This document shows, one piece after another, positions 56,679 through 61,439 of a stretch of 64,000 nt of DNA. Origin of the DNA: Variovorax boronicumulans. Its GTDB lineage: Bacteria; Pseudomonadota; Gammaproteobacteria; Burkholderiales; Burkholderiaceae_C. Position 1 is the first letter of the stretch, and each line of letters starts with the position of its first letter. Made by a program: the position numbers and the translations under genes. The stretch is from assembly GCF_029892485.1 (NCBI RefSeq), contig NZ_JARXVG010000004.1:248001-312000 (forward strand), given 5' to 3'. The notes under the pieces were generated by a model. It searched no databases, had not been told where the DNA came from, and saw only the letters and a program-made list of their open reading frames with translations.

Positions 56679-57665
56679 TTACTCGGGCTTCGCGCCCGAG
56701 GCCTTGACGGCCGCACCCCAGAGGCCGATCTCGCTCGCCACGAAACGGTCGAACTCGGCCCCGCTCGTGGGCGCGGGTTCGGAGCCGCGCTCGCGGATGA
56801 AGCGCGCCATCTGCTCCGTCTTCAGGATGTCGGTCACCTCGTGGTTCAGCCGTTCCACGATGTCGGGCGGCGTGCCGCGTGGCGCCATCAGGCCGAGCCA
56901 GCCGACGGCCTCGAAATTCTTCGTGCCCGCCACGCCGCTTTCGCGCACGGTGGGCACCTCGGGCAATTGCGACGAGCGCGTGGCCGACGTCACCGCCAGC
57001 GCAACCGCCTTGCCCGCCTTGATGTGCGGCAGCGCGGCCGTCACCGAATCGACCATCAGCGGCACCTGGTTGCCCAGGAAATCCGACTGCGCCGGTCCGC
57101 TGCCGCGGTACGGGATGTGCGTGATGAACACATGCGCCGCCGACTTGTACATCTCGCCCGACAGATGCTGCGTGCCGCCGATGCCGGCGCTCGCGTAGCT
57201 CAGGCGTCCGGGCTCGGCCTTGGCGCGCGCCGTGAGGTCGGCCAGCGTGCGGATGCCGCTCTCGGGCGTGGCAAGAAACACCAGCGGCACCTTCGCGATC
57301 AGCGAGATGCCTACCAGGTCCTTGCGCGGATCGAAGCCCGGCTTGGCATAGAGCGTCTGGTTCACCGCCATCGCGCTGCCCGCCACCACCAGCGTGTAGC
57401 CGTCGGGCGGCGCGCGCACCACGAATTCGGTGCCGATGTTGCTGCCCGCGCCGGCCTTGTTGTCGACGATCACCGGCTGGCCCAGCCGCTTGCCGAGCTG
57501 TTCGGCGAGCGCGCGGGCGAAGATGTCGGTGGCCTGCCCCGGGGGGAAAGGAACGACCAGCTTGACGGGCCTGTCGGGCCACGCGGCGGCCTGGGCGAGG
57601 CCTGCACCGCCCAGCAGCATCGCTGCAGTCAGCGCGGCGGCCAGGCGGCGGCGCTGCATCTTCAT
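56679..57665 (-). CDS. Bug-family tripartite tricarboxylate transporter binding protein
   Basis: A 328-residue periplasmic Bug/TctC receptor. A signal peptide ([19 protein letters not shown]...) ends near [33 protein letters not shown] and [22 protein letters not shown] are family blocks. Its ATG overlaps the TGA of topB by one base (TGATG at 57663-57667), so it appears translationally coupled to DNA topoisomerase III, a surprising partner. It may simply have been placed by rearrangement. No membrane subunits nearby. Confidence 0.92.
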
Positions 57666-60631
57666 CACGCCGCGTCGGGCGCCGAGAGGTGCTTGCCCAC
57701 GATGCCCGCGAGTTCGAACATCGTCACCTGGTCCTTGCCGAACACGGGCTTCAGCTTCGCATCGGCATTGATCGCGCGCTTGTTGGTCGCGTCCTGCAGG
57801 CCGTTGGCCTTGATGTAGTCCCACAGCTTCTTGATGACCTCGGTGCGCGCCACCGGCTCGGCACCGATCACCGCGGCCAGCGAGTCGCTGGGCTTCAGGC
57901 CCGCGCCGGGCTTGCGCGGCGCGGCGGCCTTCTTCGCGGCCGGTGCCTTCTTGGCAGCAGGCGTCTTCTTCGCAGCCACCTTCTTCGCTGCCGCGGTCTT
58001 GGCCGCCGGCTTGCCGAAGGTCTTGCGCGGCGGGAATTTGCTGCCGCCTTCGCGCGGCGCGAATTCGAAGGTCACCTTGCCTTCTTCGGCGTTCCAGGTG
58101 AGGAAGGCCTTGAAGGCACGGCGCGTGCGCATGCTCACGAACTTGTCGAGCAGGTCGGTCTTGCCGGTGGCGAGCAGCTTTTCCATCTGCGCCCGCTCCA
58201 CCGGCTGCTGCAGGATGATCTTGCCGGTCTTGAAGGTGCAGCTGGGCGTGGGCTGCGCGTTGGTCGGCACCGACTTTTCGCAGACGTAGTTGCTGCCGTG
58301 CTCGAACACCGGCGCGCCGCACACCGGGCATGGGCCCACGGTGTCCTGCTCGCTGAAGTCGACGATCTCGCCGGTGTCGCCATTCTTGTCGTCGCCGAAG
58401 TCGAACTCCAGCTTCCAGTTTTTCGATTCTTCCTCGTCGTACTTGAGGATGATCTCGGCGGTGAAGGGCCAGCCCGCCTTGGAGCGGAAGCCTTCCAGCG
58501 GGCCGATGTGCTTGTCGCGCAAGAGCGCCTCGGCCTCGGCCACCTCGAAGGTGCGTCCGGCCGGCGACTTGCCGAACGAGAAGCCGCAGGCGTCCTCGCC
58601 CGTGCCGCTCTTGCCGACGCAGCCGTAGCGGCGGTAGTTTTCCTTCACCACGCCGCCGCAGTTGGGGCACGGCGTTGCGAGCGTGGCGTAGTCGCCGGGC
58701 ACGGTGTCGCGGTCGTACTCCTTGGCCTTCTTGACGATGTGCTCCGTCATGGCGGCGATCTCGCGCATGAAGGCGTCGCGGCTCAGCGCGCCCTTTTCCA
58801 TCTGCGCGAGCTTGTATTCCCACTCGCCGGTGAGTTCGGCCTTGGAGAGCTCTTCCACGCCCAGGCCGCGCAGCAGCGTCATGAGCTGGAAGGCCTTGGC
58901 CGTCGGAATCAGCTCGCGGCCTTCGCGCAGCATGTACTTCTCGGCGATCAGCCCTTCGATGGTGGCCGCGCGCGTGGCTGGCGTGCCCAGGCCCTTCTCC
59001 TGCATCGCTTCGCGCAGCTCGTCGTCGTCGATGGTCTTGCCGGCGCCTTCCATGGCGCCCAGCAGCGTGGCTTCGGAATAGCGCGCGGGCGGGCGTGTCT
59101 TGAGGCCCTTGGTGTCGGCCGACTCGGTGTGGACGATCTCGCCCGGCTTCACCGGCACGAGGCGCTTGCCGTCCTTGTCGTCTTCCTTCTCGTCGTCCTG
59201 CGCTTCCTTGCCGTAGATCGCGAGCCAGCCCGGCTTGACCAGCACCTTGCCGTCGGTGCGGAACGGGTACTTCTTGCCGCCCTGCTCCACCGTGCTGATG
59301 CGCGTGGTCACCTGGTGCTCGGCGCTCGGGAAGAACACCGAGAGGAAACGCCGCACCACGAAGTCATAGAGCTTCTGCTCCGCCTCGCTCAGGCCGCTGG
59401 GGGCCTGCAGCGTCGGGATGATCGCGAAGTGATCCGACACCTTGGCGTTGTCGAAGATGCGCTTGTTGGGCTTGACGTAGTTGCCGTCGACCGCTTGTTT
59501 GGCGAACGGCGCCAGGTGCTTCATGCCGCTGTCGGCCAGCATCTCCATGGTCTGCTTGACGACCGGCAGATAGTCTTCGGGCAGCGCGCGCGAATCGGTA
59601 CGCGGGTAGGTCAACGCCTTGTGGCGCTCGTACAGGCTCTGGGCCAGCGCGAGCGTGGTCTTGGCGCTGAAGCCGAAGCGGCCGTTGGCCTCGCGCTGCA
59701 GCGAGGTCAGGTCGAACAGCGCGGGCGAGGCCTGCGTGGTGGGCTTGCTCTCTTCGGTCACCGTGGCGGGCTTGCCGCGCGCGGCGTTGGCGATGGCAAC
59801 GGCCTCCTGCTCGTTCCAGACGCGGTCGGCGCGCTGCTCGGCATCGGGCTCGCCGCTGGCCAGGAGCGGCGCGTTCGCCTTCTTCCAGTCGGGGTTGAAC
59901 CACTTGCCCGGATAGTTGCCCGCCTCGGCCGCGAAGCTGCCGTGGATTTCCCAGTAGTCGCGCGAGACGAACTTGCGGATCTGCTCCTCGCGCTCCACGA
60001 CGACGGAAAGTGTCGGCGTCTGCACGCGGCCCACGGTCGTGAGGAAGAAGCCGCCGTCGCGCGAATTGAATGCCGTCATGGCGCGCGTGCCGTTGATGCC
60101 CACCAGCCAGTCGGCCTCGGAGCGCGAACGCGCGGCGTCGGCCAGGCCCTGCATCTGCTTTTCGGTGCGCAGCGCATCGAAGCCGTCGCGAATCGCCTGC
60201 GGCGTCATCGACTGCAGCCACAGGCGCTTGACCGGCTTGCCCAGCGGGCTCTTGCCGCCGGCGTATTGCTCGATCAGGCGGAAGATCAGCTCGCCCTCGC
60301 GGCCCGCGTCGCAGGCGTTGATGAGCTGCGTCACGTCCTTGCGCTTGGCCTGCTTGACTACGGCGTTCAGGCGCGTCTTCGTCTTGTCGACTGGCTTCAG
60401 GTCGAAGTGCGGCGGGATCACGGGGAGGTTGGCAAAGCTCCACTTGCCCCGCTTGACGTCGAACTCCTCGGGCGCCTGGATTTCGACCAGGTGACCGACA
60501 GCGCTGGTCACGACATAGGTGTCGTTCTCGAAATGCTCGTCATGTTTGTCGAATTTGCCGGCCACCGGCGTGAGGGCGCGGACGATGTCCTGTGCCACCG
60601 ACGGCTTTTCTGCGATTACCAACGTCTTCAT
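57665..60631 (-). CDS. topB: DNA topoisomerase III with H1-like linker and SWIB domain
   Basis: A 988-residue type IA topoisomerase. [16 protein letters not shown] opens the Toprim domain and the catalytic tyrosine is Y342 in [11 protein letters not shown]. After the core come two zinc-ribbon-like modules (CPNCGG with GCVG, and CPVCG with CEKSV...). Residues about 874-911 are a Lys/Ala repeat of the histone-H1 type ([20 protein letters not shown]), and 912-985 form a complete SWIB/MDM2-like domain ([12 protein letters not shown] with [16 protein letters not shown] and [15 protein letters not shown]). It resolves recombination intermediates. ATG 60631 follows AGGAATTGTTG. Confidence 0.95.
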
Positions 60632-60654
60632 CAACAATTCCTAAAAAAGTTCAG

Positions 60655-60754: not shown

Positions 60755-60791
60755 CGCGTGTGCGCACGCGCACACGCGCATGTGTGCATAT
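60755..60791. other. 37-base alternating pyrimidine-purine tract (Z-DNA-forming potential)
   Basis: Every step from C60755 to T60791 alternates pyrimidine and purine: it begins CGCGTGTGCGCACGCG and continues with CACACGCGCATGTGTGCA. Such runs favour left-handed Z-DNA under negative supercoiling. The part 60755-60778 is also a perfect 11-bp inverted repeat around AC. It ends 21 bases before the SET gene start, in the promoter region shared with topB. Confidence 0.75.
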
Positions 60792-60812
60792 TCAAACTAA
60801 CAGACTTCGGCG

Positions 60813-61439
60813 ATGCCTTCCAAATCCCCAAAACTTGCCGGCCGCCGCATCCAGATGCGGCGCTCGGATGTCCATGGCAACGGCGTGTTCGCGGTGGACG
60901 ACCTGGCCGAAGGCGAAACGCTGATCGAATACAAGGGCGAGGTCATCAACTGGAAAGAGGCGCTGCGCCGCCATCCGCACGACCCGGCCCAGCCGAACCA
61001 CACCTTCTATTTCCACATCGACGATGGCCGCGTGATCGACGGCAACGTCAAGGGCAACGACGCCCGCTGGATCAACCACTCGTGCGAGCCGAACTGCGAG
61101 GCCGACGAAGTCGATGGGCGCGTTTATATCAAGGCGCTGCGCAACATCGCTGCAGGAGAAGAGCTCAATTACGACTACGGATTGATCATCGACGAGCCGT
61201 ACACGCCGAAGCTTTTGTCCGAATTTCCTTGCTGGTGCGGCTCCGAGCAGTGCCGCGGCACGCTGCTGACACCCAAGGATGAGGACGAAGAGAAGAAAAA
61301 GAAGAAGAAGGCGAAAAAGAAGGCCGAAAAGAAAAAGGCCGAGAAAAAAGAGGCGAAGAAGGCCGACAGGAAATCGGAAGCGAAATCCGAAAAGAAGGCC
61401 GAGAAAAAAGCCGGCAAGAAGAAGTCCAAGAAGGACTGA
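60813..61439 (+). CDS. SET-domain protein-lysine methyltransferase with Lys-rich tail
   Basis: A 208-residue SET protein. The SET signature is complete: G22-NG near the start, N88-HSCEPNC (SAM/pseudoknot), and EELNYDYG at 116-123. A post-SET-like cysteine cluster (CWCGSEQC, 140-147) binds zinc in related eukaryotic enzymes. Residues 155-208 are about half lysine, with Ala and Glu, like a histone-H1 tail. SET proteins methylate lysines in proteins; chlamydial relatives act on a histone-like protein. The coding strand is strongly purine-rich over the tail. It is divergent from topB and followed 2 bases later by birA. Confidence 0.92.
   Translation: MPSKSPKLAGRRIQMRRSDVHGNGVFAVDDLAEGETLIEYKGEVINWKEALRRHPHDPAQPNHTFYFHIDDGRVIDGNVKGNDARWINHSCEPNCEADEVDGRVYIKALRNIAAGEELNYDYGLIIDEPYTPKLLSEFPCWCGSEQCRGTLLTPKDEDEEKKKKKKAKKKAEKKKAEKKEAKKADRKSEAKSEKKAEKKAGKKKSKKD

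Follow-up and report, generated by a model that had tools for sequence, protein, structure and literature searches.

The closest described counterparts of the locus analyzed here are found in Chlamydia, which possesses a SWIB-fused topoisomerase I, the SWIB protein CT460 and the SET protein NUE/cpnSET. Passages of one article mention a proposed chromatin-modifying complex in Chlamydiae, discordant results on Hc1 methylation, and the presence of SWIB in 11% of Proteobacteria (PMC6426960); a passage of another source describes SWIB as rare among prokaryotes other than Chlamydia (PMC12445093). Two other SET proteins are relevant: BtSET, reported in part of a third text to methylate H3K4, and Go1-SET of Methanosarcina mazei, which according to the same text methylates MC1-alpha, a chromosomal protein of the same organism, in vitro (PMC3980110). 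The locus considered here consists of topB, encoding DNA topoisomerase III, a divergently transcribed gene for a SET-domain protein, and the alternating purine-pyrimidine tract in the gap between them. It is located in a 64,000-nt stretch (hereafter, the window) of the Variovorax boronicumulans genome (assembly GCF_029892485.1, contig NZ_JARXVG010000004.1, positions 248,001 to 312,000).

Like Chlamydia, the genome containing the window combines a SWIB-fused type IA topoisomerase with a SET protein and a further SWIB protein that stands alone; unlike in Chlamydia, the topoisomerase is topoisomerase III rather than I, topB and the SET gene are physically linked, and a Z-DNA-prone tract lies between them. 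The SET protein resembles BtSET and LegAS4/RomA in being a proteobacterial SET methyltransferase, but these are described as host-directed (BtSET is compared by description only), whereas the window gene lies next to topB on the chromosome and is near-universal. Go1-SET is a prokaryotic SET protein with a chromosomal-protein substrate, as proposed for the SET protein of the window, but it is archaeal and its substrate is known. Full-text literature searches, in which most subscription journals are not covered, detected no topB-SET linkage outside Chlamydiae and no Z-DNA tract at a bacterial topB. Each of the proteins belongs to a known family; what appears to be new is the conserved SET-topB linkage in free-living bacteria, the clade of SWIB-fused topoisomerase III and, above all, the promoter tract that is conserved as alternation.

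The divergent topB-SET locus in Comamonadaceae

The family of the window was taken to be Comamonadaceae from the genera of the named relatives of the SET protein, which are mostly Variovorax, Xenophilus, Polaromonas, Ramlibacter, Hydrogenophaga and other Comamonadaceae (the closest one, from Variovorax sp. ZS18.2.2, is 98% identical). A survey of 150 genomes of this family identifies a SET match in 141 and a TopB match (E-value threshold 1e-150) in 145. With adjacency defined as matches no more than 3 kb apart, and using the TopB positions in 144 genomes, SET and topB adjoin in 132 of the 137 genomes that contain both, in all 132 divergently and separated by a median of about 170 nt, so the adjacency noted in the initial annotation of this DNA extends beyond the strain. 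In the remaining five genomes, the two genes are either on different contigs (G140 and, with incomplete context, G045, G065 and G131) or 8 kb apart (G079). In G045, a 50-nt alternating run is present upstream of SET near a contig end (locus L354), with topB on a different contig.

For comparison of neighbors and intergenic regions, 56 family loci were retrieved at 20 kb. In all 56, SET is followed by birA in the same orientation, which makes birA a second possible partner of SET, one absent from the initial annotation; on the far side of topB the most common sense-frame neighbor cluster is found in only 16, a count that leaves out one 46-locus cluster mixing frames antisense to the topB end with others further out. 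The conserved unit therefore comprises topB and, in the opposite direction, SET-birA, the latter two genes probably forming an operon. In the Polaromonas-type loci (L241, L245, L250, L254, L256, L260, L269 and L273), the topB-SET gap is about 650-700 nt long and retains an alternating run of 22-35 nt; L273 is labelled Brevundimonas and is probably a mislabelled bin.

The alternating purine-pyrimidine tract

The initial annotation placed a Z-DNA-prone tract in the shared regulatory region; the tract is indeed there and is strongly conserved across the family. Only one other alternating run of at least 18 nt exists in the window (18 nt at 12098-12115). Across the 56 family loci, the longest run in the topB-SET gap has a median length of 24 nt and reaches 18 nt in 45; the rest of the same loci, about 1.07 Mb, contains a single run of this length, and in 48 loci the longest run overall is the one in the gap. 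A run of at least 18 nt is present in 72 of 76 named loci, the longest being 53 nt; when the gaps are shuffled with dinucleotides preserved, such a run arises in 21 of 5600 sequences. On the scale of 30 whole genomes, a run of 24 nt is found in 23; among the matches listed, which represent 25 distinct sites in 19 genomes and include none from G000, G025, G028 or G032, 14 sites fall in the topB-SET gap by coordinates and 11 are scattered. The gap runs of G025 and G032 are only 10 and 8 nt long, so that the 24-nt matches of these genomes lie elsewhere. A passage of one article states that alternating patterns are generally suppressed in beta-proteobacteria (PMC4060949).

Comparison of 29 mostly Variovorax loci with the window reveals 106 transitions and 6 transversions in the tract, 139 and 200, respectively, upstream of it, and 5 and 16 downstream (L205, L207 and L208 were read from a later start and lack the upstream part). 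The same tendency is observed in 15 separate pairs of loci drawn from both clades, where every position within the longest run of either locus was counted as tract: the transition to transversion counts are 46:26 in the tract and 171:318 in the flanks (p = 4e-6). The letters of the tract change mainly by transitions, and therefore the alternation is kept rather than the sequence. In the 84 distinct tracts, the pyrimidine-purine steps are CG (47%), CA/TG (46%) and TA (7%), the latter compared with an expected 9%, which indicates no clear avoidance. The 37 nt of the window form a long alternating run of CG and CA/TG steps, the sequence pattern by which Z-DNA elements are recognized. That the tract is a real, selected feature can be stated with high confidence; Z-DNA as its mechanism is suggested by the sequence pattern, with moderate confidence.

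Of six SET-less genomes of the family, two keep a run of 19-21 nt upstream of topB, with 17 nt in a third. The observations favor a topB control element of Comamonadaceae that predates the SWIB fusion of TopB (see below), given its occurrence in both clades. Within the gap, most rows of an alignment of Variovorax-type loci contain a -10-like hexamer, TACAAT or TATACT, which might be part of the SET promoter.

The SET and TopB proteins and their distribution

A Pfam search shows that both domains recognized in the initial annotation are real. The SET protein aligns with the complete profile PF00856 (positions 1-105 of 105; residues 22-123, E = 2e-23, 83.2 bits against a cut-off of 22.4), and the nearest solved sequences are the SET domains of MLL1/KMT2A (E = 1.2e-26), in an alignment that spans the NHSCEPNC motif and the post-SET cysteines. 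These elements had been described in the initial annotation together with a tail that is about half lysine, and all of them are present. In 213 aligned rows, residues H21, G22, G24, N88, H89, Y122, C91, C140, C142 and C147, which we take to represent the HGxG and NH(S) motifs, the catalytic tyrosine and the post-SET cysteines, are conserved at 99-100%. Given this conservation of the presumed cofactor and catalytic motifs and of the four post-SET cysteines, SET is predicted to be catalytically intact, with its catalysis under selection. Most orthologs end soon after GTMLAPKR or GTLLAPKR, without a lysine tail. A structure prediction for SET (38 sequences) has a mean pLDDT of 58 and was not used.

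The same genome encodes a second SET protein of 176 amino acids, 43% identical to that of the window, which has post-SET cysteines of its own and lacks a lysine tail (L002:1432-1959; contig C1 of G000, about 558740-559159). SET genes are also present on 50 plasmid records (hits H1-H20), all less than 60% identical, some with up to five copies; 45 of the 50 records belong to Paraburkholderia, Caballeronia or Burkholderia.

TopB, which is 988 amino acids long from the ATG and 990 if the upstream TTG is used, matches the NCBIfam equivalog model PRK14724 for topoisomerase III over residues 1-983 with 1990.3 bits (cut-off 1088), and scores 188.7 bits with PRK06319, the model of the SWIB-fused topoisomerase I of Chlamydia, for which the cut-off is 868. 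The Pfam domains detected are Toprim, Topoisom_bac, Toprim_Crpt and, at the C-terminus, SWIB (PF02201, whole-protein E = 1.3e-25). The Lys/Ala-rich tract that precedes SWIB had been assigned to the histone H1 type; the likeness is one of composition alone, and a profile search of the protein identifies neither a histone H1 nor an Hc1 family.

The SWIB domain is absent from 32 of the 56 sampled family TopBs. Judging by match ends, 66 of 132 TopBs are SWIB-fused, a lower bound given that a local match may end within the linker, e.g., in G020. On the TopB tree, the fusion maps to one gain in one clade, with 24 of 26 members carrying it and two apparent losses, and it is younger than the SET-topB pairing. 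A SWIB domain is found somewhere in the genome in 148 of the 150 family genomes. SWIB as an obligate partner of SET was considered and is ruled out by the SWIB-less family TopBs and by 7 of 36 SET-containing genomes outside the family that have no SWIB match. The genome of the window also encodes a stand-alone SWIB protein of 157 amino acids (L003:1249-1722; contig C1 of G000, about 746133-746348), in which a long AKKAPAKKAAPAKK repeat is followed by SWIB; with its PAKKA-type tail, this protein resembles nucleoid proteins and is a candidate SET substrate.

Table 1. Features of the topB-SET-birA region; coordinates are those of the window
Feature	Position	Strand	Remarks
topB, DNA topoisomerase III with C-terminal SWIB	57665..60631	-	988 aa; PRK14724; Toprim, Topoisom_bac, Toprim_Crpt, SWIB
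SWIB domain, TopB residues 912-982	57686..57898	-	PF02201, 89.4 bits (cut-off 25), profile 3-74 of 74
Lys/Ala-rich linker, TopB residues 874-911	57899..58012	-	11 Lys and 16 Ala in 38 residues
Intergenic control region shared by topB and SET	60632..60812		181 nt
TACAAT, -10-like hexamer, candidate SET promoter element	60738..60743	+	suggested by alignment
Alternating purine-pyrimidine (Z-DNA-prone) tract	60755..60791		37 nt; presence and alternation conserved
SET-domain protein, predicted lysine methyltransferase	60813..61439	+	208 aa; PF00856; likeness to MLL1 SET
Lys-rich SET tail, residues 155-208	61275..61436	+	54 residues with 28 Lys; not conserved in family
birA, biotin protein ligase	61442..62257	+	TIGR00121, 133.9 bits (cut-off 83.1); 2 nt past SET stop codon

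In an order-level survey of 200 genomes, SET (cut-off 1e-5) is detected in 48 and TopB (cut-off 1e-120) in 94. Beyond the family of the window, SET is frequent in two families (97 of 120 and 67 of 81 genomes) and present in all four genomes of a third. Outside the family, SET (1e-20) co-occurs with TopB, which is found in 32 of 36 SET-containing genomes and 57 of 159 others (odds ratio 14, phylogeny ignored), and with SWIB (29 of 36 and 40 of 159, odds ratio 12, relatedness ignored). SET and topB are convergent direct neighbors in all four genomes of one family, which have no birA at this locus; in three of these, the ones with sufficient region, dnaA, dnaN and gyrB directly precede SET. The order dnaA-dnaN-gyrB-SET is also found in two small genomes of another family. 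In these loci of two families (L113, L115, L116, L124 and L125), SET follows dnaA-dnaN-gyrB immediately, at the presumed replication origin, and in the first family it is located between gyrB and topB. In a further family, 9 of 30 loci have topB upstream of SET and in the same orientation, directly in five (39-128 nt) and with about 0.9 kb between the genes in four; in the remaining loci, its place is often taken by a gene for an Lrp-type regulator (10 of 30) or an acetolactate-synthase-like gene (14 of 30). In a fourth family, no topB, gyrB or dprA is found within about 1.5 kb of SET in any of 30 loci.

A possible topology-linked module and the alternatives

Divergent transcription enriches negative supercoiling between genes, topoisomerase III acts on negatively supercoiled DNA, and the topoisomerase promoters of Escherichia coli are supercoiling-controlled, such that DNA twist feeds back on the topoisomerase genes. 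We know of no Z-DNA tract in those promoters; unlike them, the topB-SET gap contains a long alternating tract under purine-pyrimidine constraint. The locus could be a topology-linked module in which a SET methyltransferase is encoded beside topB together with a supercoiling-sensitive element, a reading that we consider quite possible, if somewhat short of probable. Transcription of topB and SET-birA away from each other would generate negative supercoils between them, a flip of the alternating tract to Z-DNA would take up the resulting stress, and local supercoiling would thereby control how topoisomerase III, and probably also SET, is expressed, forming a feedback loop. SET itself would be an old bacterial lysine methyltransferase working within its own cell, with a DNA-bound or nucleoid protein as the most likely substrate; for a nucleoid target, confidence is low to moderate. 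The SWIB domain, a later addition in one clade, would probably mediate nucleoid or partner contact. A more elaborate version, in which selection on the purine-pyrimidine alternation maintains a left-handed-DNA switch and supercoiling tunes both topoisomerase III and a nucleoid-marking methyltransferase in a chromatin-topology feedback circuit, is conceivable and rather doubtful.

Several observations weigh against the topology-linked module. Alternation by itself is no proof of Z-DNA, and six of the 15 pairs show two or more transversions in the tract. A scan of positions 60500-61000 for promoter and terminator consensus sequences found nothing, including no full promoter. In the family itself, 11 of the 56 loci with the gene pair lack a run of 18 nt, and in G140 and G079, where the genes are apart and the stretches complete, the run at either gene does not exceed 12 nt. 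In other families, no run of 18 nt was found in the 400 nt preceding SET (81 loci: 30, 30, 4 and 17) or near the topB start (24 genomes); therefore, neither gene needs the tract. The test of SET-TopB co-occurrence ignores phylogeny. Finally, SET is linked to birA as tightly as it is to topB, so that topB need not be its partner.

Instead of a Z-DNA switch, the tract could be bound by a protein, form an RNA hairpin in the leader of SET, or be a low-complexity region of mutational origin, an account that is possible and on balance open to doubt. Taken as RNA, the tract of the window folds somewhat better than shuffled sequences (z = -1.99), and long runs also occur at a few other sites in the genomes, namely the 11 of 25 noted above among the matches listed. 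However, the 84 tracts are not more self-complementary than shuffles that preserve the purine-pyrimidine pattern (mean z = -0.22), so that a conserved hairpin was rejected, and the letters vary while the alternation stays; under a general mutational bias, the recurrence of one locus across genomes would not be expected. A broader alternative is that SET is unrelated to topB, with the neighborhood reflecting inherited inertia and SET-birA or SET alone being the working unit. The invariant position of birA behind SET agrees with this explanation, as does the lack of a topB match within 1.5 kb on either side of SET, observed for one family in 21 of 30 loci and for another in all 30 sampled. On the other hand, topB is found beside SET in three orientations across families, with no birA in the convergent ones, and the far-side neighbors of topB are not conserved; we consider this alternative unlikely.

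The initial annotation suggested that SET may methylate the Lys/Ala tract of TopB, its own lysine-rich tail or other nucleoid proteins, and its interpretation as a whole is partly supported. The tract and the SET tail are both lysine-rich and close together in this strain, and the TopB tails of the nine tandem topB-SET loci contain 12-23 lysines, for which reason TopB may be a SET substrate in some lineages. As conserved substrates, however, the tract and the tail both fail: in 17 of the 56 SET-bearing loci, the TopB tail extends no more than 10 residues past the last repeat (these short tails often keep one or two lysines), the tails in all four convergent genomes are free of lysine, and a Lys/Ala-SWIB tail is present in one of the six SET-less family genomes (G026), whereas the lysine tail of SET is labile, requiring eight changes on the TopB tree of 64 loci. 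Methylation of either one as the general role of SET is accordingly improbable; other nucleoid proteins are still candidates. It is even harder to envisage SET being secreted to methylate the histones of a host, the effector role reported for BtSET and LegAS4. Parts of two reviews report host-directed roles for bacterial SET proteins including BtSET (PMC3980110, PMC7819608), and SET weakly matches the LegAS4/AnkI effector model NF043024, but the score is 40.5 bits against a cut-off of 550, the sole Pfam family on the protein is SET, with no ankyrin repeats, and the gene is near-universal in a family whose members named here are environmental genera; we regard this role as very improbable.

Z-DNA may have a regular job in bacteria, and a tract that persists through letter changes at one promoter family-wide, before a topoisomerase gene, marks a defined site at which this can be examined. 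Likewise, because the chromosomal gene for a SET methyltransferase is linked with topology genes in several families, it offers a route to ask about methylation of nucleoid proteins by the bacteria themselves.

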